Made by a program: the position numbers and the translations under genes. Below are positions 1 through 12,267 of a stretch of DNA of 64,000 nucleotides, piece by piece. The DNA comes from Streptomyces sp. HUAS MG91. Lineage in GTDB: Bacteria > Actinomycetota > Actinomycetes > Streptomycetales > Streptomycetaceae. Position 1 is the stretch's first letter, and the number at the start of each line of letters is the position of its first letter. The stretch spans positions 2,046,001 through 2,110,000 of the forward strand of contig NZ_CP159534.1 of assembly GCF_040529335.1 (NCBI RefSeq), written 5' to 3'. The notes under the pieces are model-generated. The model was not told the DNA's origin. It saw nothing but the letters and a program-made list of their open reading frames with translations, and made no database searches.

Positions 1-333
1 CACGCGTAGGCGGATCTCGACGCTCTCGCGCGTCACGGGGTCCGTGGTGAGCGCCGCCATCCAGGTCTTCGCGTACTGCTCGAAGGTCACCACTCCGGCC
101 GAGGGATCGATGTAGCGCCCTTGGGATACGTCCGCCTCGATGTTGGCCAGCCAGGTGTCAGCCTTGCGCTTCTGCTTGTCCGGGAAGCTCTTGGACTTTT
201 CCGAGCCGTCCGGGCCGATGTACCGGGCTCGGTAGCGGAGGCCGACGCCGTAGCGGTCGCTCTTGACCCTCCGGGGCTTGCCGTCCGGGCCGATCTCGAC
301 CTTGAACCAGCGGTCCTGGATGTGCCCGGCCAT
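1..333 (-). CDS. int: Site-specific tyrosine recombinase (integrase), N-terminal part only
   Basis: The first 111 codons of the element's integrase are present; the rest lies beyond the left edge. The ATG (331-333) overlaps the TGA of xis as ATGA, which fixes the start and implies translational coupling. The N-terminus contains a basic segment rich in K and R (residues about 15-57) typical of the arm-type DNA-binding region, followed by a stretch (about 83-111, 'TFEQYAKTWMAAL') like the core-binding SAM-like domain of phage integrases. The catalytic R-H-R-Y residues are not in the window, so assignment rests on this N-terminus and on xis/repSA synteny. It would catalyse attP x attB recombination, with Xis giving excision. 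Confidence 0.85.
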   Translation of the reverse strand, partial: MAGHIQDRWFKVEIGPDGKPRRVKSDRYGVGLRYRARYIGPDGSEKSKSFPDKQKRKADTWLANIEADVSQGRYIDPSAGVVTFEQYAKTWMAALTTDPVTRESVEIRLRV

Positions 334-539
334 CAGGCAGCCGCTCTTTCCATCAGGGAGTCCACCCAGGAGCGCACGTCTCCGGGGTGATAGCGAACGT
401 GCCGGCCAACGCGGAATCCCTTGGGACCAGTGCCCTTGCGACGCCACTGATAAAGGGTCTCGACCGGGACGCCGAGCAGGTCAGCAACGTCTGTCGGGGG
501 CAGGTAGCGCTCAGGCAGGGCACGCTTCACGGTCACCAC
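333..539 (-). CDS. xis: Excisionase, MerR-type helix-turn-helix
   Basis: A 68-residue protein whose middle reads as a MerR/Xis-like winged helix: 'PTDVADLLGVPVETLYQWR' is the helix-turn-helix, followed by 'GPKGFRVGRHVRYHPGDV', the typical wing. Small proteins of this type next to AICE integrases act as recombination directionality factors that bend attachment-site DNA and favour excision. Its start lies inside the end of repSA (7-bp overlap) and its stop overlaps the integrase start, so rep, xis and int look like one translationally coupled unit, as in pSAM2. Confidence 0.88.
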   Translation of the reverse strand: MVTVKRALPERYLPPTDVADLLGVPVETLYQWRRKGTGPKGFRVGRHVRYHPGDVRSWVDSLMERAAA

Positions 540-1918
540 TCCTTCTCGTCGGCAAGGTCTGCGAGTGCTTCGCGTGCTGTCTCTCGATTCAGTTGGATGT
601 CGCGGGCGATCGTGGCAGCGAGGGCGGATTCGCCGGGGGTGTGTCCGTGCCCGGCGTACTGCCAGTCGGCGAGGACGAGGACCGTTCCCGGCTCGTAGTC
701 AGGCGTGCCGAGGGCTTCGCGTTCTTGGGCGGCTCGGAAGTCGGCACGGGCCTGGCGGAGTTCGCCGAGGGTGGTCGAGTAGCGGCGGGACTTCGAGGAG
801 AAGTGGCCGCGGAAGCCCAGCATGTGAGCCCAGGCCCAGAGGCGCCGGTCCGGGTAGAGCGGATCGAGCAGCTTGCATGCGGTGATCAGTCGGCGGGCAT
901 GGTCGGGGACGCCGTGGCGGTCGAGTTCAGCGAGTTCGCCGATCCGGCGGTCGAGGGTGCCTGTGTCCTCTGCGGCTTTGGTGGCGTACTTGGCGACGTA
1001 GGAGGCGACGGCCTGTTCGGTGATGTCGGAGCCGTTGCCGAAGGCTTTGACGGGTCGCACGTCGAGCTGTCGGCCCCACCGGAAGGTACGGGCCGGTTGG
1101 TCGTCGGCGGCGGGGACGCTGACGCTCGTGTAGGCGTGCGCTGCGGCGGCCCGGATCGCGTCGTCGAGGAGGGCGACGCTGGCCCAGGAGGGCGGCGGGG
1201 TATCCGGTCCATCGGGCCCGTCGAGGCGGATCACGGAGTGGAAGTGGATGGCGCCTCGCTTCTGGAACTCGGCGACCTTGCCGTACGAGACGCGGGCAGA
1301 CTCGGCGAGTTCGCGTTGAGTGAGTCCGGCGCGAGCGGCGATCTCACGGCGGAGCCGGTTGACGAAGCGCATCCACAGTTCGCCGGACAGATTGTTGAAG
1401 AGGACCGTGCCCGCGTAGTCGTACGTGCTCGTGTCGAGCGCGGTTCCGAGGGCTGGATCATCCGGGGTGTGTCGCGTGCCGCAGCGGCAGGTGCCGCGGT
1501 CGGGCCGGTTGTGGACCGGGCCGAACGAGGGCGCGGTCAGGGTGGTGAAGACCCGGGGGTGATCGCGGACTGTGGCGGTGATGTCGCAGCGGTCGTCGCC
1601 AACGAGTCCGGCGCGGATCAGGTGGTAGGTGTCCCCGGCGTAGGTCCAGGCGCAAGCCGGGCAGCGGGAGGCGCGGCGGTTGCCGCAGGCGACGCGGAGC
1701 CGACCGCCCGGCTCGGTCTCGGTCGAGTAGTGGTGCAGGGTCTCACCGGTCGTCTTGTTCTTGGTCAGCGTCCAGCCGGTCAGGTGGATGGGGTTGGCGC
1801 AGCCGCCGGTACGGCGTATCTGGTCTTGCCAGCGGTCAAAGCCGTCGGACCCGTCCACTCTCAGCAGGTCGCCGAGGGTGGTCGGGTCCAGGCCCGCGAA
1901 GGTCGCGGTGTCGGTCAT
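533..1918 (-). CDS. repSA: RepSA-family rolling-circle replication initiator
   Basis: A 461-residue protein. The start is placed at the ATG 1916-1918, which overlaps the stop of the upstream zinc mini-protein as ATGA; an upstream extension would only add a low-complexity leader. Residues 78-89 form a C-x8-C-x2-C zinc-binding-like cluster, a second Cys pair lies near residue 145, and 'HFHSVIRLDG' (225-234) is the HUH-like metal-binding motif of rolling-circle initiators. 'YVAKYATKA', further on, carries candidate catalytic tyrosines. RepSA of pSAM2 nicks the double-strand origin and drives intermediate replication after excision. It is the longest element gene after TraSA's operon and is followed directly by xis and int. 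Confidence 0.85.
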   Translation of the reverse strand: MTDTATFAGLDPTTLGDLLRVDGSDGFDRWQDQIRRTGGCANPIHLTGWTLTKNKTTGETLHHYSTETEPGGRLRVACGNRRASRCPACAWTYAGDTYHLIRAGLVGDDRCDITATVRDHPRVFTTLTAPSFGPVHNRPDRGTCRCGTRHTPDDPALGTALDTSTYDYAGTVLFNNLSGELWMRFVNRLRREIAARAGLTQRELAESARVSYGKVAEFQKRGAIHFHSVIRLDGPDGPDTPPPSWASVALLDDAIRAAAAHAYTSVSVPAADDQPARTFRWGRQLDVRPVKAFGNGSDITEQAVASYVAKYATKAAEDTGTLDRRIGELAELDRHGVPDHARRLITACKLLDPLYPDRRLWAWAHMLGFRGHFSSKSRRYSTTLGELRQARADFRAAQEREALGTPDYEPGTVLVLADWQYAGHGHTPGESALAATIARDIQLNRETAREALADLADEKEW

Positions 1919-2103
1919 GCGCGGCCCCCGGCGAGGGCGATGGTGCGGCGGGTCGTGGTTCCGGTGCCGTGGCACTTCGAGCAGTGCACGGTGATGGTGC
2001 GCAGGTGTCCGGCGCGTGTGCGGCCGCCGAGGGTGATGGAGACGGAGGCGAAGCCGTCGCAGGCCGGGCAGATGCGGGACGTGGGGCGGGGGCGTTCGGT
2101 CAT
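1915..2103 (-). CDS. Small zinc-ribbon protein (two CxxC knuckles), AICE-associated
   Basis: A 62-residue protein with 'CPACDG' and 'CSKCHGTG', two CxxCxG knuckles like half of a DnaJ zinc-finger domain. A Gly-Gly-Arg turn and a His lie between them. It has a good Shine-Dalgarno (GGAAGGAA) and overlaps the start of repSA by 4 bp. No experimentally known function comes to mind; such mini-proteins recur in Streptomyces integrative elements. It resembles the 59-residue protein encoded at 3630-3809, so the element carries two paralogues. A role in binding nucleic acid or in RepSA function is inference only. Confidence 0.75.
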   Translation of the reverse strand: MTERPRPTSRICPACDGFASVSITLGGRTRAGHLRTITVHCSKCHGTGTTTRRTIALAGGRA

Positions 2104-3552: not shown

Positions 3553-3629
3553 GTCTTCACCTCCTTCGAAGAGTTGTAGCCGGGGCCGGGCGGGGCTCAC
3601 GAGATCCGGCCGCCCGGCCTAGGCGGTGT

Positions 3630-3809
3630 TCAGTCGGTGGCTTCGCCGGAGCCGAAGCAGGTCAGGCACATGCCGGTCTGCCGATGACCGGTGGTCCGCT
3701 GCTTGCGTCCGCCGACACGGACCGCGACGGAGATCTCTCCGGAGCCCTCGCAGGTCTTGCACTGCGGCGGGGCGGCGGGCTTACGAGCGGGGCTCTTGCG
3801 TGCGGGCAT
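3630..3809 (-). CDS. 59-residue zinc-ribbon mini-protein, paralogue of the one at 1915-2103
   Basis: The ATG is at 3807-3809 with the Shine-Dalgarno GGAAGGAG; the stop TGA is at 3630-3632. The product begins with a basic Ala/Pro/Lys stretch, then 'CKTCEGSG', a GGRKQRTTGHRQTG hinge, and 'CLTCFGSG'. The C-x2-C-x-G pairs and the Gly-Gly-Arg...Gly-His...Thr hinge match the other mini-protein of this element. It lies between traSA and spdB on the same strand, so it is probably co-transcribed with them. Function unknown; metal binding is inferred from the Cys pattern. Confidence 0.75.
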   Translation of the reverse strand: MPARKSPARKPAAPPQCKTCEGSGEISVAVRVGGRKQRTTGHRQTGMCLTCFGSGEATD

Positions 3810-3892
3810 GGGTGGTGCTCCTTCCGTGATCAGGCATGGACGGGGTAGGGACCTGGCGCGAGACGGTCACGCCGACCGGGAAGCGGGGAAGA

Positions 3893-5248
3893 TCAGGCCG
3901 CGCTCGGAGCGGACTCCACGGCCGGAGCCGAGATCGGCATCAGGTGCGGGAGCACGGGCCGGAACGGGGCCAGTTCGGGCAGGTCCGGAGTGCGGTCCGC
4001 GTGCCGATTGCAGATGTTGACGGCCTTGCGCAGGGACGTGTGCGGGGCCCGGATGCGAGACCAACCGCCGGTCGAGTCGCCGGAGATGGCCACGCCGCGG
4101 AGTTCGGCGGGAATCGAGATCGCGGCCAAGACTGCGTCGGGGGCGATGTCGCCGAAGGCCATGTTCGCCGAGGTCTCATCGTTCACGCGGTGAGCGGTGC
4201 GGCCGGAGAGCTGGGCGCGGAGCATCGTGATGCCCTTGCCGAGTTCGGAGCCGAAGCGCTGCCCGCAGATCTCCAGGTAGACCCCGGCAGCACGGCCGAG
4301 CTGGGCCAGGCGCACGAGCGCGGTGATGATCCGGTCTCGACGCTTCTCTTCGATCTTGTTTGCGAAGAGGGCGAGTTCGGCGACCTCGTCGACGAGGACG
4401 ACGATCGGGACCGGTCGCAGGTCCTCGGGGAGGTCCCAGATGTCGGCAGCGATCTCTGCATCCGGGATCGCGGACGCCACTCCCTGATGGGCACGGATGG
4501 TCTGGTAGACGCCCTCCATGTGGTCCACGAGCGCGTCAAGGAGGTCCGCAGCGGTGTCGGGGTTGTCGGCCAGCGCGGAGAACCGGCGGGCGAGCGGGAA
4601 CAGCTCGACACCTTGCTTGCAGTCGATCCCGACCAGGCCCACGTCACGCGGGGCGAGTTCGGCGACCAGGTTGCGCAGGTACACCGACTTGCCGGACTCG
4701 GTGGCCCCGAGGGTGAGGGCGTGCGGGATGGCACGGTAGTCGCGGTAGTGCACCGCGCCGTCCTCCCGCAGGGCGACCGGGATGCGCATCGGCGCCGGGT
4801 CGGTCTTGGCGGGCATGTGCACGCGCTTGAGCACGTCGTAGCCGGTCATGCGCAACTCGACGATGCCCGAGCGCAGCTCACGCGAGGAGACGCCGTACAG
4901 GCCAAAGGAGTGCCGTAGCCGATCAGTGGACGCGGCCACGTCGAAGGCGTCCTGCCCGGGGCGGAGCTTGATCCGTAGGACCAGGCCGGTCCGGGTCGGC
5001 CGCAGCCGCAGGATGCGCGGAGCCCGCGGGCCGGGCATGTCCCGGTTGGTCATCCGGGCGAGCCGCATTCGCCAGCGGGGCGGCGGGACCGTCAGGCCGC
5101 AGGCGTCCATGACCGAGCCGTAGCGGACCAGCAGACGCAGCGCGGCAAGGGTGACCCCGAAGGTCAGCCAGTACCAGGCGGGGCGCCGCCACCGCAGGAG
5201 ACCCGCAGCAGCAGCGACCAGCAGCACGAAGGCGAGAAGCCACGTCAT
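3893..5248 (-). CDS. traSA: TraSA-like FtsK/SpoIIIE DNA translocase for conjugation
   Basis: A 451-residue protein starting at ATG 5246-5248. Two N-terminal hydrophobic stretches (about residues 2-18 and 25-42) anchor it in the membrane. The FtsK/SpoIIIE motor follows, with Walker A 'GATESGKS' (181-188), 'GIDCKQGVEL' and Walker B 'IVVLVDE' (282-288). In AICEs and Streptomyces plasmids this single protein forms the hexameric pump that moves double-stranded DNA to the recipient by recognising short clt repeats with a C-terminal winged helix. The gene follows the 118-residue conserved gene by 2 bp, so the two are co-transcribed from the divergent promoter region near 5610-5775. Confidence 0.92.
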   Translation of the reverse strand: MTWLLAFVLLVAAAAGLLRWRRPAWYWLTFGVTLAALRLLVRYGSVMDACGLTVPPPRWRMRLARMTNRDMPGPRAPRILRLRPTRTGLVLRIKLRPGQDAFDVAASTDRLRHSFGLYGVSSRELRSGIVELRMTGYDVLKRVHMPAKTDPAPMRIPVALREDGAVHYRDYRAIPHALTLGATESGKSVYLRNLVAELAPRDVGLVGIDCKQGVELFPLARRFSALADNPDTAADLLDALVDHMEGVYQTIRAHQGVASAIPDAEIAADIWDLPEDLRPVPIVVLVDEVAELALFANKIEEKRRDRIITALVRLAQLGRAAGVYLEICGQRFGSELGKGITMLRAQLSGRTAHRVNDETSANMAFGDIAPDAVLAAISIPAELRGVAISGDSTGGWSRIRAPHTSLRKAVNICNRHADRTPDLPELAPFRPVLPHLMPISAPAVESAPSAA

Positions 5249-5250
5249 GG

Positions 5251-5607
5251 TCAGGCAGCCTTCGACTTCGAGGCGTCCGCGGCCAGCGAGGTCACAGCCA
5301 CCGCGCGGAACGAGATGCCGTGGCGCTTGCCGTTGCCGAAGTCGTTCTCCCACGGGCGGGCGATCAGCCCCGTGAGCGCGACGGGCGTACCCATCACGAG
5401 CTCACCCGAGATGCCCGGCTCGGGCACCGTGACGGCCAGGAGCTCCACCTCATCGTTGGCGGAGAACATGACGTCGACCGTCATCAGGTGGGCGCCGGTC
5501 TCGACGTCCGTGGCGATCTCGCCGGTACGGCGGTCCTTGACCTTGGGCTGCGGGGCCTTGGCCACCATCACGGCGGCGGCGGAGGTGTCAACGGGGATCT
5601 GACGCAT
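5251..5607 (-). CDS. Conserved AICE protein, probably SCO3933-family
   Basis: A 118-residue protein beginning 'MRQIPVDTS', a sequence typical of a small family encoded just before traSA-like genes in Streptomyces elements; I recall the name SCO3933-family regulatory protein. It is mostly beta-strand-like with 'DRRTGEIATDVETGAHLMTV' and 'WENDFGNGKRHGISFRA', resembling an OB-like fold, but I see no catalytic motif. It is the first gene of the minus-strand transfer operon and stands divergent from the HTH regulator at 5776, with putative operators between. A regulatory or single-strand-binding role is inference. Confidence 0.6.
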   Translation of the reverse strand: MRQIPVDTSAAAVMVAKAPQPKVKDRRTGEIATDVETGAHLMTVDVMFSANDEVELLAVTVPEPGISGELVMGTPVALTGLIARPWENDFGNGKRHGISFRAVAVTSLAADASKSKAA

Positions 5608-6542: not shown

Positions 6543-7013
6543 ATGGCCCGCATCGACTACATCAATGATCCGAACGCCCCGAAGGCGAACAGCATCGTCC
6601 CCTCTGTGGTCGCTGTCGCCGTCAACGACGCCGGTCAAGTCCTCATGATCCGCAAAACGGATAACAACCTGTGGGCGCTCCCCGGCGGAGGGGTGGAGAT
6701 CGGCGAGTCCGTCGCAGACGCCGCCGCCCGGGAGACCAAGGAAGAGACCGGGATCGATGTCGAGGTGACGCGTGTGGTCGGTCTCTACACCGACCCGGGT
6801 CACGTCATGGCGTACGACGATGGCGAGGTCCGCCAACAGTTCTCGATCTGTTTCACGGCCCGCATCCTCGGCGGCGAGCCCCGAACGAGCAGTGAGAGCA
6901 AGGAAGTCGTCTTCGTTGATCCGGAGCAGCTGGGCGAGCTGAACATCCATCCGTCCATGCGGATGCGGATCGAGCACGGCCTGTCCAACCGCTCCGAGCC
7001 CTACATCGGGTGA
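6543..7013 (+). CDS. Nudix hydrolase, possible Pif-like transfer immunity factor
   Basis: A 156-residue protein with a complete Nudix box at residues 49-71: G-x5-E, x7, 'RETKEETGI', containing the metal-binding REx2EE core. Nudix enzymes hydrolyse nucleoside diphosphate-X compounds. In pSAM2 the Pif protein carries a Nudix motif and blocks redundant transfer between element-bearing cells, and the position here, after the regulator and at the end of the transfer module, fits that role. The stop codon is directly adjacent to the stop of the convergent HD gene (0 bp between them). A housekeeping clean-up enzyme is the alternative. Confidence 0.8.
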   Translation: MARIDYINDPNAPKANSIVPSVVAVAVNDAGQVLMIRKTDNNLWALPGGGVEIGESVADAAARETKEETGIDVEVTRVVGLYTDPGHVMAYDDGEVRQQFSICFTARILGGEPRTSSESKEVVFVDPEQLGELNIHPSMRMRIEHGLSNRSEPYIG

Positions 7014-7565: not shown

Positions 7566-8085
7566 GAATCGCACCGTATCCGAGCCGCGGAGCGCAGGAC
7601 AGTCCGGCGATGCCGACAAGGCCCCTGGCGCGCTGGCGCGGTGGAACTTTCCCTACATCATCAAGGCCCGCGCACGGCGCGGACGCGGGCCGCCTCAGCG
7701 GCCCGGCCTGCCTCCTGTCTCCGCCCCGGCTGGCCGGGCCCGGCGGCCCGCTGCGTGCATGCGGGCGAGGTCAGAAAACACCCTCTATGGCTGGGGCGGT
7801 CGGCTCCACGGCTTTAGGCAGCCACTTTGGGGCGAGCCTCTAAGATCATGGCCCAACGTCGTGCTTTAACGGGCAGGTCCACAGACTGCCCGACTCGCCA
7901 TCAGCTTAACGGGCCATGATCACTCGCCCCAAAGCAGCTCCAGCCCAAAGCCGCTCCGCCGACCTGGCTGCCCACCTCGCGCACGATCAACGAGTTTCTA
8001 CGAACCCATACTCGAGCAAGCAACAGCGATCTACAGTTCTCCTGTCCGTCATGAACAGAAGCGACTGATGAGGTGGAGCAGCACA
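7566..8085. other. 520-bp non-coding region between HD gene and DUF262 gene
   Basis: No convincing gene is present. The first part (about 7640-7750) is very GC-rich with many short self-complementary stretches. The centre holds the compound palindrome 7798-7964. The last part, from about 7970, becomes AT-richer and leads into the DUF262 gene; a six-codon ATG...TGA mini-frame lies at 8051-8068 just before that gene's ribosome-binding site. The change in composition suggests that the junction between the element backbone and the cargo lies here. Confidence 0.6.
7798..7964. repeat. Compound imperfect palindrome, candidate single-strand origin or transfer locus
   Basis: Nested inverted arms pair in order: 7798-7804 with 7958-7964 (GGTCGGC); 7809-7815 and beyond with 7943-7953 (CGGCTTT.GGC); 7825-7836 with 7923-7934 (CTTTGGGGCGAG, 12 bp perfect); 7844-7854 with 7911-7921 (GATCATGGCCC, 11 bp perfect); and an inner hairpin 7870-7876 with 7886-7892 (CGGGCAG). 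TTAACGGGC is directly repeated at 7866-7874 and 7906-7914. Such structure in non-coding DNA of a rolling-circle element resembles the single-strand origins (sti of pIJ101) or clt-type loci. Which one, if either, cannot be told by eye. Confidence 0.6.
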
Positions 8086-9204
8086 GTGGCAAAGCAGTCG
8101 GATCAGACCCCCTTGTTCGATGACCTTGAAGACGAGGATGTTACTGCCGAGCAGTCGGAGCCGCTTTCAGTACCACTGGAGGATCGTCGACTGGTCACGC
8201 AGCCGTACGACTTGTCACTTGCGACTCTGGTAGACGACATCGAGAGGGAACGCCTCCTCTTGAGCATCGAGTATCAGCGGAAGTACGTATGGGACAGGTC
8301 GAAGGCCAGCCGTCTGATCGAAAGCTTCCTACTCAACATTCCAGTTCCAGTTTGCTATTTCGCGGAGAATGAAGATGGCTCCTACGAAGTAATTGATGGA
8401 CTTCAGCGGATCCAAACAGTCAAGGACTTCCTGTCAGGGGAATTCGCCTTGCGCGGAGTTTCCGTTGTCAGCGAATTCGAAGGGTTGCACTACGACCAAC
8501 TCCCCCCCAAAGAGCAGCGCCGACTGAGCAATAGGACCATTCGATGCATCGTAATCACCGATGACTCTCACCCGGATATCAAGTTCGACGTATTTGAGCG
8601 CTTGAACACCGGTTCGGCAATGCTCGCCGCGCAAGAACTGAGGAATTGCATCTACCGAGGCGGCCTCAACACTTACCTCAAAGAGCTAGCAGAGGATCCA
8701 AACTTCTCGCGAATTCTCGGAGGGCTAAAGAATAATCGAATGGCTTACGAGGAGCTAGCCTTGCGCTTCTTCTCTTTGTACGAGGACCTCGCGGGATATC
8801 GCCCACCCCTGCGGCAATTGCTTAACGGTTACATGCGGAATCATCGCACCGGAGCTCCAGACAGTGAGGCCATCCGCGTATTCTCTGAAACTTGCACAAC
8901 CGCATTCGAAATCTTTGGCGCAGACGGCTTTAGGCCTATCAAAGACGGCAAGCTGGGCGCCTTCAATAAAGCTCTCTTCGACTCAATCATGCTGCCGCTT
9001 GCGTACGCAGATAGAGGTGCAGCGGTGAGTAAGACGGAAGAGATCAAGGAGCTACGCACGGAGCTCCTTGATCGAGAAAGCTTCCAAACTGATATCGGGC
9101 GTGCGACGGCCGACCGAAGCCGAATGCACGGACGCATCACAGCTTTCGCCAAGGGGCTTAAGAGGCTTGGTGTGCGCTGTGACCTTCCGCGACTCCCGGA
9201 CTAG
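8086..9204 (+). CDS. DUF262 (ParB/GmrS-like) protein of a two-gene cassette
   Basis: A 372-residue protein using GTG 8086-8088 with the Shine-Dalgarno-like GGTGGAG 7 nt upstream; an in-frame ATG at 8068 is the alternative. DUF262 marks are present in order: 'YQRKYVW' (63-69), 'DGLQR' (104-108, the usual DGQQR) and 'FERLNTGS' (about 170-177). DUF262 is the ParB/Srx-like NTP-hydrolysing half of type IV restriction enzymes such as GmrSD. The C-terminal half lacks any HNH/DUF1524 nuclease motif that I can see, so this is a stand-alone DUF262. Codon use (many AAT, ATT, CTA, GTA) is unlike the host. The partner HEPN gene starts 10 bp after its stop. Confidence 0.85.
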   Translation: MAKQSDQTPLFDDLEDEDVTAEQSEPLSVPLEDRRLVTQPYDLSLATLVDDIERERLLLSIEYQRKYVWDRSKASRLIESFLLNIPVPVCYFAENEDGSYEVIDGLQRIQTVKDFLSGEFALRGVSVVSEFEGLHYDQLPPKEQRRLSNRTIRCIVITDDSHPDIKFDVFERLNTGSAMLAAQELRNCIYRGGLNTYLKELAEDPNFSRILGGLKNNRMAYEELALRFFSLYEDLAGYRPPLRQLLNGYMRNHRTGAPDSEAIRVFSETCTTAFEIFGADGFRPIKDGKLGAFNKALFDSIMLPLAYADRGAAVSKTEEIKELRTELLDRESFQTDIGRATADRSRMHGRITAFAKGLKRLGVRCDLPRLPD

Positions 9205-9214
9205 GCGGAAGGAA

Positions 9215-9955
9215 ATGGCCGACACATCGCTCGGAGCATTGTCCGAGTTCATTGACAGTCTGCGCGAAGTAGAGACGCTACTAGCCGCCGCCCCATCACA
9301 GCCGTTGGGCGATGGAAGCGTTTCACGTCAGTCTCATAATCGGGATCTAGTCAATGCGGTTAACCGGTCCGCGATGGTGATGCTGGTTGCCCATTTCGAG
9401 GGATTCGTAAAGTCTGCCCTCACGGAATTGATCGATGAGATCTCCGAGGCAGAGCCTCCAACTCGCCGCCTTCCCGAAGGCCTGCTGGAACTCCACACAC
9501 GCGAACGGATACAGGAAATCTTCGGAACTGCGGGCCCAGACAGGATCCACAAGACCCGCAGACTTTTTTCAGCCTACGCATCACTATGGGATTCAGACCG
9601 AACAGTCAATCCTCGCATCCTTTCAGCCAGGGTCCTCACGCGCCAATTCACCAACGCGCGACCCGAGGTGCTCGATAGCGTCTTTTCTATCCTCGATGTT
9701 CAAGATGTCCTAGCGACAATGGACGCCCACGTGAACCAAGCCATCATGGACCGTGGCGACAGCGCAACTCGAGTCAAGGTTAGCGTCAAACTCGAGGAAA
9801 TCGTTAATCGGCGCAACAAGATAGCTCACGGTGACAAGTCTGAGAAGCCTACACGATTTGAGGTAGAGGGCCACCTAAGCTTCCTTAAGGACGTCGCAGA
9901 GTGCCTCGCGCAAGTACTTCAGCAGACGATCAACCGTTGTTGTTCTTTGCGATGA
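9215..9955 (+). CDS. HEPN-domain RNase-like protein (MAE_28990/MAE_18760-type)
   Basis: A 246-residue protein; the ATG at 9215-9217 has GGCGGAAGGA just upstream. The near-C-terminal 'VNRRNKIAHGD' gives the HEPN Rx4H signature (R200-N201...H205), the catalytic motif of many RNase toxins. An N-terminal helix with 'VAHFEGFVKSALTEL' (58-72) is also typical of this HEPN subfamily. Ten bp after the DUF262 stop and with the same atypical base composition, it forms a two-gene operon with it. HEPN RNases often act in abortive infection. I infer that DUF262 senses or controls and HEPN executes, but no experiment on this pair is known to me. Confidence 0.8.
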   Translation: MADTSLGALSEFIDSLREVETLLAAAPSQPLGDGSVSRQSHNRDLVNAVNRSAMVMLVAHFEGFVKSALTELIDEISEAEPPTRRLPEGLLELHTRERIQEIFGTAGPDRIHKTRRLFSAYASLWDSDRTVNPRILSARVLTRQFTNARPEVLDSVFSILDVQDVLATMDAHVNQAIMDRGDSATRVKVSVKLEEIVNRRNKIAHGDKSEKPTRFEVEGHLSFLKDVAECLAQVLQQTINRCCSLR

Positions 9956-10210
9956 GGGAGATGCGAAATTAGGTGGGTGCACCACATCAACCTTGATGCG
10001 AATTCATGTAACACCGAAGCGCGAGACGCCCCCTGCCTACCTCAAAGAGAGCCGAACTCCTTATGAGGTGTCACGCACAAGCGCCCTCCCGGGCCGTCCT
10101 GGGGCCGTGGAAGGGCGCTCGTTGGTGACCAGCGCTGACAACTGGCGACAGCTAAGCCGCAGCTCAGAGCGGTGATCCAGTACACGACCGCAGGTCACGG
10201 CCGCCGATGA
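9956..10210. other. Right junction region of the element (att expected), no gene
   Basis: This 255-bp stretch between the HEPN gene and the stop of dapD must contain the right end of the element. GC rises from cargo level to host level around 10,070. I see no tRNA gene or tRNA 3' half, so I cannot place the att core; its duplicate would be left of the window. A small open frame at 9993-10175 has no ribosome-binding site or recognisable product. Confidence 0.5.
10080..10119. terminator. Hairpin at element/chromosome junction, possible terminator
   Basis: AGCGCCCT (10080-10087) pairs with AGGGCGCT (10112-10119), with GC-rich self-pairing sequence between. There is no clear T run on either side. 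It could stop transcription leaving dapD (minus strand) or the HEPN operon (plus strand). Confidence 0.4.
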
Positions 10211-11203
10211 TCAGTTGTGGCTGTGCAGTACCTCGTTCAGCCCGCCCCACACCGCATTGTTCGGCCGGGCCTCGACCGTGCCGGTGACCGAGTTGCGGCG
10301 GAAGAGGATGTTCGAGGCGCCGGAGAGGTCGCGGGCCTTGACGATTTCGCCGTCGGGCATCGTGACGCGGGTGCCCGCGGTGACGTAGAGGCCGGCCTCG
10401 ACGACGCACTCGTCGCCGAGGGCGATGCCGACGCCCGCCTCGGCGCCGACGAGGCAGCGCTCGCCGATGACGATGCGGACGTTGCCGCCGCCGGAGAGAG
10501 TGCCCATCGTGGAGGCGCCGCCGCCGATGTCGGAGCCGTCGCCGACGACGACGCCCGCGGAGATGCGGCCCTCGACCATCGACGTGCCGAGCGTGCCGGC
10601 GTTGAAGTTCACGAAGCCCTCGTGCATGACCGTGGTGCCCTCGGCGAGGTGCGCGCCGAGGCGGACGCGGTCGGCGTCGGCGATGCGCACGCCCTTGGGC
10701 GCGACGTAGTCGGTCATGCGCGGGAACTTGTCGATCGAGGTGACCTGGAGGTGCAGGCCCTCGGCGCGGGCGTTCAGGCGGACCTTCTCGACGTCGTCGA
10801 CGGCGACCGGGCCGAGCGAGGTCCAGGCGACGTTGGCCAGGAAGCCGAACTGGCCGTCCAGGTTCAGGCCGTGCGGCTTGACCAGGCGGTGGCTGAGCAG
10901 GTGCAGGCGCAGGTACACGTCGTGCGCGTCCAGCGGCTTGTCGTCGAGGGAGCCGATGACCGTACGGACGGCCACGACCTCGACACCGCGGCGGGCGTCG
11001 GGGCCGATCGCCTTCGCGGCACCCTCGCCGAGCAGCTCGACGGCCTTGTCGGCGGAGAGCTTCTCGGTACCGGCCGGGCCGGGCTCGTCCGTCAGGGACG
11101 GCGCGGGGAACCAGGTGTCGAGAACGGTGCCGTCGGCGGTGACGGTGGCGAGGCCGGCGGCGACGGCGCCGGTGGAGCGGGGAGCAAGGGTCGTGTCGGT
11201 CAT
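10211..11203 (-). CDS. dapD: 2,3,4,5-tetrahydropyridine-2,6-dicarboxylate N-succinyltransferase
   Basis: A 330-residue protein of the actinobacterial DapD type. It transfers succinyl from succinyl-CoA to tetrahydrodipicolinate in the succinylase branch of lysine and diaminopimelate synthesis (cytoplasm). The C-terminal half is the left-handed beta-helix built of hexapeptide repeats ('[19 protein letters not shown]', '[17 protein letters not shown]', '[19 protein letters not shown]'); the N-terminal domain carries the family-specific segments. The start is ATG 11201-11203; the open frame continues upstream, but only this start gives the conserved N-terminus '[12 protein letters not shown]'. 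It is the first chromosomal gene right of the mobile element. Confidence 0.95.
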
Positions 11204-11298
11204 GGGGCCCAACTTAATCGGCGGGCCCCTGTTCGAGCGAACCAGCGGGGGCGGCGTCTCAGGTGCCGGGCGCCGCCCCGTGCCCGTCCGTCCGTCCG

Positions 11299-12267
11299 TC
11301 AGGGGCGGTCCCCCTTGTGGTCGACGACCGCCGTGTCCAGGAGCGCGTTCTGGAACATGATGTCGCCGGCCTTCCACGGCCGGTCCGGGGTGTCGGGGGA
11401 GTACGACTCCTTGAAGTCCTTGACGATCAGCCACCGGTCACCGAGATACTGGTAGGTGCGCGGGTCGATCAGGATCTCCCGGCGGACCGTCTGCCCCTTC
11501 TCGTCGTGCCCGACCGCGATGGCGTCCCGGCCGGCGGCGTCGTGCACGAGACGCGGGGTGACCTCGGCGCCGGGCACCGCGGCCAGCGCCCGGTACAGCT
11601 TGGCGAGGGCCTTCGGCGGCATGGGCCTGGTCTCCAGTACGACGCTCATCGCGCGCATGTCGTGCTCGCCCTCGGACTCGGGGTCGCCCTTGCCCGAGGG
11701 GTAGTAGGCGCGGACCTTCTTGAGGACGGCGTCCGGGTCGTCGGGGAGCGCGTTCAGGAACTGGAGCCGTTCGCGCGGCGAGCGGTCGTCGCCCTCCTTG
11801 CCGTTCTCGAAGCGCGGGTCCGCGTACAGCGTCCAGGACTCCTGGGCGCCCCTCTTCGGCGAGGTCTGGGTATTGCTCTTGTCCTTGGGCCAGACTCCCG
11901 GGTCGCGGGAGAGCGTCTTCGTGTAGATCCACTGCCCGGCGCGCGGGGTGGCGGGCGGGCCGGCCTGCTCCATGGCGGTCGCGGCGCGCTCCATCACCTC
12001 GCCGACCGATCCCCGTACCGTCCGGGTGTCGGCGGGCGCGGACCGGTCGGCGCCGTCCCCGCCGACCCCGGCGGCCAGCACGGCGACCGCGGTCAGCGCG
12101 GCGGCCGCCCCGACCGCGGCGAACCGCCAGTCGGCCCGCAGCCTCCGCGCCCGGCCGCCCCCGGCGGCGGCGACGAGCCTGTCCCGGCCGGGAGCGAGCC
12201 GGCCCCGGTCGGGCGTCGGCGCCCCGGCCCGGAAGTCCCGTACGTCCTTCATCTCGTCCACGTTCAC
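11299..12267 (-). CDS. CU044_5270-family membrane protein, sigma factor partner
   Basis: A 322-residue protein with a cytoplasmic N-terminus, one membrane helix (about residues 48-70) and an extracytoplasmic domain of about 240 residues containing '[15 protein letters not shown]' and '[11 protein letters not shown]'. It matches what I know as the CU044_5270 family, regularly encoded right after ECF-like sigma factors in actinomycetes. Its start overlaps the sigma factor stop by 4 bp. The layout suggests a membrane-bound partner or anti-sigma role, but no zinc-binding anti-sigma motif (HxxxCxxC) is present, so this is inferred from context. Confidence 0.7.

Follow-up and report, generated by a model that had tools for sequence, protein, structure and literature searches.

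A DUF262-HEPN gene pair in a Streptomyces integrative and conjugative element: a candidate defence cassette with the composition of PD-T4-2

The DUF262 domains of BrxU and SspE hydrolyse nucleoside triphosphates (NTPs) and are coupled to a nuclease; in SspE, hydrolysis follows the recognition of phosphorothioate DNA (PMC10952713). The same paper lists PD-T4-2 both among DUF262 systems and among systems with a HEPN domain of family PF18735, and deletion of PD-T4-2 from ECOR65 led to more T4 plaquing (Vassallo et al. 2022, PMC9519451). A 2013 survey gave Ribo L-PSP-HEPN the entry "operon with ParB" and placed MAE_28990 in an operon with a ParB nuclease (Anantharaman 2013, PMC3710099). Here we analyse a DUF262 gene followed by a HEPN gene in a 64,000-nucleotide stretch of Streptomyces sp. 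HUAS MG91 (contig NZ_CP159534.1, positions 2,046,001 to 2,110,000; hereafter the window), where the two genes lie in an actinomycete integrative and conjugative element (AICE) at dapD. A first-pass annotation had taken them for a sensor-effector pair of a composition known from no characterised system. That composition is found in PD-T4-2, which protects Escherichia coli from T4, and it was not undescribed either, as HEPN families had already been tabled with ParB-type operon genes in 2013 (PMC3710099). Judged by its sequence, the window pair is a divergent, separate and widespread lineage whose composition is known from PD-T4-2. We favour, with a probability of about 0.6, the reading that its two genes make up an anti-phage or anti-invader system, carried as exchangeable cargo of the AICE, in which a sensor would act on a ribonuclease (RNase).

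The cassette consists of the following features, in window coordinates:

8086..9204, plus strand: DUF262 / GmrSD_N protein of 372 amino acids (aa), identified by Pfam, PADLOC, motifs and a structure model
9205..9214, plus strand: 10-bp spacer, with a GGAAGGA purine run ahead of the HEPN ATG, read from the sequence
9215..9955, plus strand: HEPN protein of 246 aa with the Rx4H motif R200...H205, a predicted RNase effector, identified by Pfam, alignments and AlphaFold

Both open reading frames (ORFs) lie where they had first been placed, with 10 bp between the stop at 9204 and the ATG at 9215. Residue numbers in the DUF262 protein count from the GTG at 8086, the point from which close homologues align; an in-frame ATG at 8068 is an alternative start and would give 378 aa. 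The genes are, as first described, richer in AT than the host (54-55% G+C (GC) against ~70% around them), the DUF262 gene having 54.3% GC and the HEPN gene 54.8%, while five measured neighbour genes range from 63.7 to 72.2%. A promoter scan found none, and terminator-like sites occurred at chance level.

The DUF262 protein was first described as stand-alone, with the motifs YQRKYVW, DGLQR and FERLNTGS and no HNH/DUF1524 part, and the Pfam and motif checks agree. Pfam reported GmrSD_N alone (9.1e-25), with no HNH or DUF1524 match at E <= 1 in this protein or its HEPN neighbour, and YQRKYVW, IDGLQR and FERLNTGS were all found. In 44 DUF262 sequences the residues of the QR, DGxQR and FERLN motifs are invariant or nearly so, and Q64, R65, W69, D104, G105, Q107, R108, F170, R172 and N174 are strictly invariant. 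The structure model is closest to BrxU, followed by ParB and SspE. The protein is thus predicted to be a ParB/Srx-fold NTPase acting as a sensor or regulator. Its neighbour matches HEPN_RiboL-PSP (1.9e-23) and HEPN_MAE_28990 (5.8e-18) in Pfam. The Rx4H signature noted earlier is intact (R200-N-K-I-A-H205), and R200 and H205 are invariant across alignments of 21, 30 and 42 HEPN proteins; both the HEPN catalytic residues and the DUF262 motif residues are thus conserved among the aligned homologues. With an AlphaFold model of mean predicted local distance difference test (pLDDT) score 91.5, Foldseek returned nothing from the PDB at E <= 0.001; HEPN proteins ranked first with a second aligner only, the best aligned solved chains being HEPN-MNT toxins and AbiA. 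From these features we infer that the protein is an RNase. Neither protein had a family in NCBIfam or a solved relative by sequence at E <= 1.

To ask how often such genes are adjacent, relatives of the DUF262 protein were collected by scanning one genome per species, and the best 80 of at least 163 confirmed loci were used. These 80 span Actinomycetota, Pseudomonadota, Bacteroidota, Bacillota, Cyanobacteria, Chloroflexota and others. A HEPN gene lies next door in 46, a C-terminal HNH domain, assigned by pattern, is fused in 25, NsnB is the neighbour in two (L070 and L088), neither partner is present in four (L014, L015, L024 and L085), and three fragmentary loci (L062, L069 and L078) were unclassified. 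Of the 46 HEPN-paired loci, 44 were assigned by the Rx4H motif and size, and L031 and L044 by tblastn. The first downstream ORF could be found by rule in 68 of the 80 loci, and 44 of these 68 ORFs matched HEPN_RiboL-PSP (PF18735) at E <= 0.01 (45/69 counting the window); the Pfam and motif counts are both 44, and since Pfam gave totals without names their members may differ. Recurrent adjacency across phyla, proposed earlier as a check on the pairing, is therefore borne out. Three of the loci with neither partner, the cyanobacterial L014, L015 and L024, encode short DUF262 proteins near the window clade that lack HNH; tblastn with other HEPN proteins detected no HEPN gene in these loci.

When 26 DUF262 proteins were scanned, all but one of them (25) long forms, 24 matched HNH (PF01844); L013 is without HNH. 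The same scan, with L017, L030 and L038-L041 among the HNH loci, showed an EVE domain in two proteins and Mrr_N in one. A HEPN profile detected no HEPN fused to DUF262 among 29 DUF262 proteins longer than 400 aa. The window DUF262 protein also matches 779 plasmid records (518 from Escherichia), of which 50 cover at least 80% of the protein, and the pair was present in all four plasmid relatives opened. One of these is the conjugative, IncF-type E. coli plasmid pRHB15-C18_2, in which DUF262 and a 180-aa HEPN gene (L002:5022-6617) sit beside pemIK. The window HEPN itself had no tblastn match in the plasmid collection at E <= 1e-3, and 40 pattern matches among viral contigs included no relative.

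The search was also run in reverse, where the association came out weaker. PF18735 occurred at 13 places in 11 of 296 Actinomycetota genomes, and DUF262 adjoins five of the 13, the window's own included, or five of the nine above the cut-off; one place, L166, is at a contig end. Within the window's order, a profile of close HEPN relatives matched at 20 places in 19 of 391 genomes, six with DUF262 next door (again counting the window's own), and its strong matches were confined to the window's genome and G364. Elsewhere among actinobacteria, HEPN homologues with 48-84% identity keep R and H. Compared with the forward counts, these results show that the DUF262 family is usually paired with HEPN, while these HEPN proteins also exist elsewhere. 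In G713 (L167 / L173), several HEPN-matching ORFs follow one another without DUF262 in the 3-kb loci.

PD-T4-2 is the closest described system in layout. Like the window pair it is a two-gene operon with DUF262 first and an Rx4H HEPN second, and in two members (L090 and L160) the DUF262 gene is followed by a 167-168-aa Rx4H gene. The window DUF262 protein shares 24% identity with PD-T4-2_A of L090, which the tree puts in a starred clade (98) whose members are paired with HEPN, separate from the window's clade; the PD-T4-2_A model gives 473 bits to a genuine member and 152 bits to the window protein. The second genes, of 167-168 aa in the two members and 246 aa in the window, have no detectable similarity in sequence: no PD-T4-2_B model matched the window HEPN at E <= 1, model PDLC04028 returned nothing in the window's own genome, BLASTP gave E 0.34, and a profile-profile comparison gave a probability of 0.2% (from a two-sequence profile). 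On account of its HEPN, the window pair was rejected as PD-T4-2 by sequence. Pfam applied to one PD-T4-2_B protein gave a PF18735 match that was only sub-threshold (2.3e-4).

The RiboL-PSP and MAE_28990 HEPN proteins of the 2013 survey belong to the same families, have the same kind of operon partner and are predicted RNases of biological conflicts; in the part of that paper available they are a table entry, without an experimental test or a division by lineage or partner (PMC3710099). Within the literature searched, DUF262 and HEPN occur together in PMC3710099 and PMC10952713 only, and no DUF262-HEPN pair appears in the available parts of PMC13092281 and PMC12839542. The type IV restriction systems GmrSD, BrxU and SspE share the DUF262 (GmrSD_N) domain with the window, BrxU being the best structural match, but the window protein lacks a DUF1524/HNH nuclease and has a HEPN partner in trans. 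HEPN-MNT modules share the Rx4H HEPN and pair it with a minimal nucleotidyltransferase instead of DUF262.

Menshen (NsnABC) has a stand-alone DUF262 protein of the NsnA type, with the ATPase NsnB where the window has HEPN. NsnA is the best PADLOC model for the window protein (2.9e-79, 265 bits, against 5.7e-45 and 152 bits for PD-T4-2_A), so the locus could be thought a partial Menshen system that has NsnA without NsnB and NsnC. We consider this highly improbable. The match is unspecific, since DUF262 in all four HEPN-paired plasmid loci scanned likewise scores best with NsnA; the DUF262 gene is followed by HEPN and then dapD, NsnB matches in the same genome being far away; and the true NsnB loci, L070 and L088, group apart from the window, inside the HNH-bearing group on the tree. 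An identity with Menshen was accordingly rejected, because HEPN rather than NsnB adjoins the DUF262 gene. For the window and the four plasmid loci alike, the DUF262 protein scores higher with the NsnA model than with that of PD-T4-2_A (models PDLC03877 and PDLC04027), which could yield false partial Menshen calls. When five HEPN partners were run singly in PADLOC 2.0, PD-T4-2_B was absent in four and weak in one (E 0.0034). Automatic annotation thus probably misses or misnames DUF262-HEPN pairs.

Partner genes in this family are nearly contiguous and have been inherited together. The intergenic gap is -8 to +20 nucleotides in 36 of 44 pairs, with starts set mechanically. Distances on the DUF262 and HEPN trees correlate over 60 pairs with r 0.81, the best of 2,000 permutations reaching 0.23, and the nearest neighbour is identical on both trees for 50 of the 60. 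This shows co-inheritance of the two genes, an agreement of trees that does not equal physical contact; that the two proteins touch is something we infer. The recurrent pairing, the conserved sites, the near-contiguity and the co-inheritance all fit the sensor-effector pair first suggested, and the part of that suggestion which fell is the novelty of its composition.

The choice of effector follows the form of the DUF262 protein. Long forms carry a C-terminal HNH and lack a HEPN partner, and short forms are mostly paired with HEPN. With loci labelled as 61 HEPN, 25 HNH and 2 NsnB, and the four with neither partner dropped, a quick search on the 92-protein tree placed the difference between HEPN and HNH at one change (at least 17 in 200 shuffles), and a tree of the N-terminal parts required two. 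A Fisher value of 2e-13 for the same difference is not to be used, because it counts relatives as independent when the trait changes only once or twice. The change counts point to one or two old effector exchanges that have long been kept. The idea that HEPN replaces the fused nuclease holds insofar as HNH fusion is the commonest alternative in the family; it does not hold as repeated swapping, since one or two events suffice.

The element that carries the cassette, and the gene in which it ends, have these features:

1..447 (whole gene L141:7092-8447), minus strand: N-terminal part of a tyrosine integrase (Pfam Phage_integrase, 6.2e-18)
533..1975, minus strand: RepSA-type replication initiator of the AICE (Pfam RepSA, 9.9e-147)
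3893..5353, minus strand: FtsK/SpoIIIE-type conjugative DNA translocase of the AICE (Pfam FtsK_SpoIIIE, 2.3e-41)
6543..7013, plus strand: Nudix hydrolase of the AICE backbone (Pfam NUDIX, 9.8e-22), its DNA conserved in L158
7014..7619, minus strand: HD-domain protein, the final backbone gene ahead of the cassette (Pfam HD, 7.2e-8)
10211..11434, minus strand: dapD, tetrahydrodipicolinate N-succinyltransferase (longest ORF), the chromosomal attachment-site gene (Pfam THDPS_M, 8.5e-18)
10211..10224, plus strand: core of the right attachment site (attR), TCAGTTGTGGCTGT, the final 14 bases of dapD (exact direct repeat)

The integrase gene has its start inside the window and runs on to a point 908 bases ahead of it. 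The left copy (attL) of TCAGTTGTGGCTGT, the longest exact direct repeat found on comparing the two flanks, is located 947 bases ahead of the window, at L141:7053. As the two copies of this 14-bp repeat bound the element, the AICE measures ~11.2 kb and the cassette is its last cargo before attR. The features looked for in a pSAM2-like AICE (integrase, RepSA, an FtsK-type transfer gene and att direct repeats) are all present, in accord with the original placement of the pair at the cargo end of a conjugative element. pSAM2 encodes a Nudix immunity factor, Pif, of which we take the Nudix hydrolase at 6543-7013 to be a possible counterpart.

Related loci show the cassette and the backbone apart. 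G547 (L158) carries a colinear AICE backbone at the identical dapD site without the DUF262-HEPN cassette; it matches window positions -950 to 7965 with mostly 79-82% identity (76% in one stretch, and a gap at 3567-3890). There, window positions 7966-10078 are swapped for ~630 bp without a match (L158:13166-13798), the longest ORF of which is at most 130 aa. This marks the stretch between the HD gene and attR as a spot of cargo exchange. In G549 (L159) the left flank and dapD are 692 bp apart with no element match between them; this looks like an unoccupied attachment site, although the intervening DNA could not be aligned to fix the exact junction. The closest relative of the window pair, in G364, is on a 407-kb contig, where within 19 kb only window positions 7788-9867 match and the AICE backbone does not. 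It adjoins a gene that, judged by eye, resembles a DNA methylase, and its two genes have 55.3% and 56.4% GC against 67.2% for the surrounding 19-kb stretch. Since G547 has the backbone without the cassette and G364 the cassette without the backbone, the pair behaves as a cassette.

Clustering in defence islands, which had also been proposed, is weakly indicated by the flanking genes of the 44 HEPN-pair loci. The 149 genes there include four phage integrases, three resolvases, two DDE transposases, two N6_N4 DNA methylases and one ApaLI-type restriction enzyme among the 25 of 151 families listed, and none of these families appears among those listed for 112 control genes (25 of 89). The result is a weak one because the family lists are partial, the control is actinobacterial only and the picking of genes was crude.

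Two further explanations bear on what the cassette does for its carrier. It might be a toxin-antitoxin or element-maintenance module, with HEPN as the toxin and DUF262 as antitoxin or regulator, that helps to maintain the AICE or protects it from rival elements, not from phages. Two near-contiguous genes on a mobile element would suit such a module, HEPN toxins are known from HEPN-MNT modules, to which the window HEPN model aligns best, and a dyad of MAE_18760 HEPN with a ParA/Soj ATPase has been proposed as toxin-antitoxin (PMC3710099). The E. coli plasmid relative L002, moreover, adjoins pemIK. Antitoxins are usually small proteins, and the partner here is a 372-aa NTPase-like protein with restriction and defence kin (GmrSD, BrxU, SspE and PD-T4-2). 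The G364 pair, on its 407-kb contig, shares the cassette region alone with the window's element within 19 kb, which also speaks against a module bound to this element, and we regard the explanation as unlikely. Less likely still is decaying cargo, two captured genes without a present function in the host. Their low GC relative to the host and the rarity of strong matches to the HEPN family (within the order, 2 of 391 genomes, its own included) might be so explained, but both ORFs are intact, the 48-84% identical HEPN homologues keep R and H, and the G364 pair is low in GC too, so that a low GC content seems to characterise the cassette itself and not to signal decay here.

The defence reading leads to a simple scheme, in which the roles of DUF262 in sensing and in HEPN control are proposed by analogy with BrxU and SspE. 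The DUF262 protein, as a ParB/Srx-fold NTPase, would sense infection and control HEPN in trans; the signal may be invader DNA or a changed state of the nucleotides. Once released or activated, HEPN would cut RNA through its Rx4H site, and RNA cleavage might then stop translation or kill the infected cell.

DUF262 is the sensing or NTPase half of several restriction-like systems that have a DNA-cutting nuclease. We suggest, tentatively, that DUF262 and HEPN form one large cross-phylum immune family in which a restriction-like sensor switches on an RNase and not a DNase; PD-T4-2 would be one branch of it, and the window pair would represent an uncharacterised actinobacterial lineage able to travel on AICEs. 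In the related DUF262 family the usual partner is a separate predicted RNase, and sister proteins carry a fused HNH, which makes it a clean system of one sensor with two kinds of effector. If this view is right, restriction-type sensing would here serve to destroy RNA.
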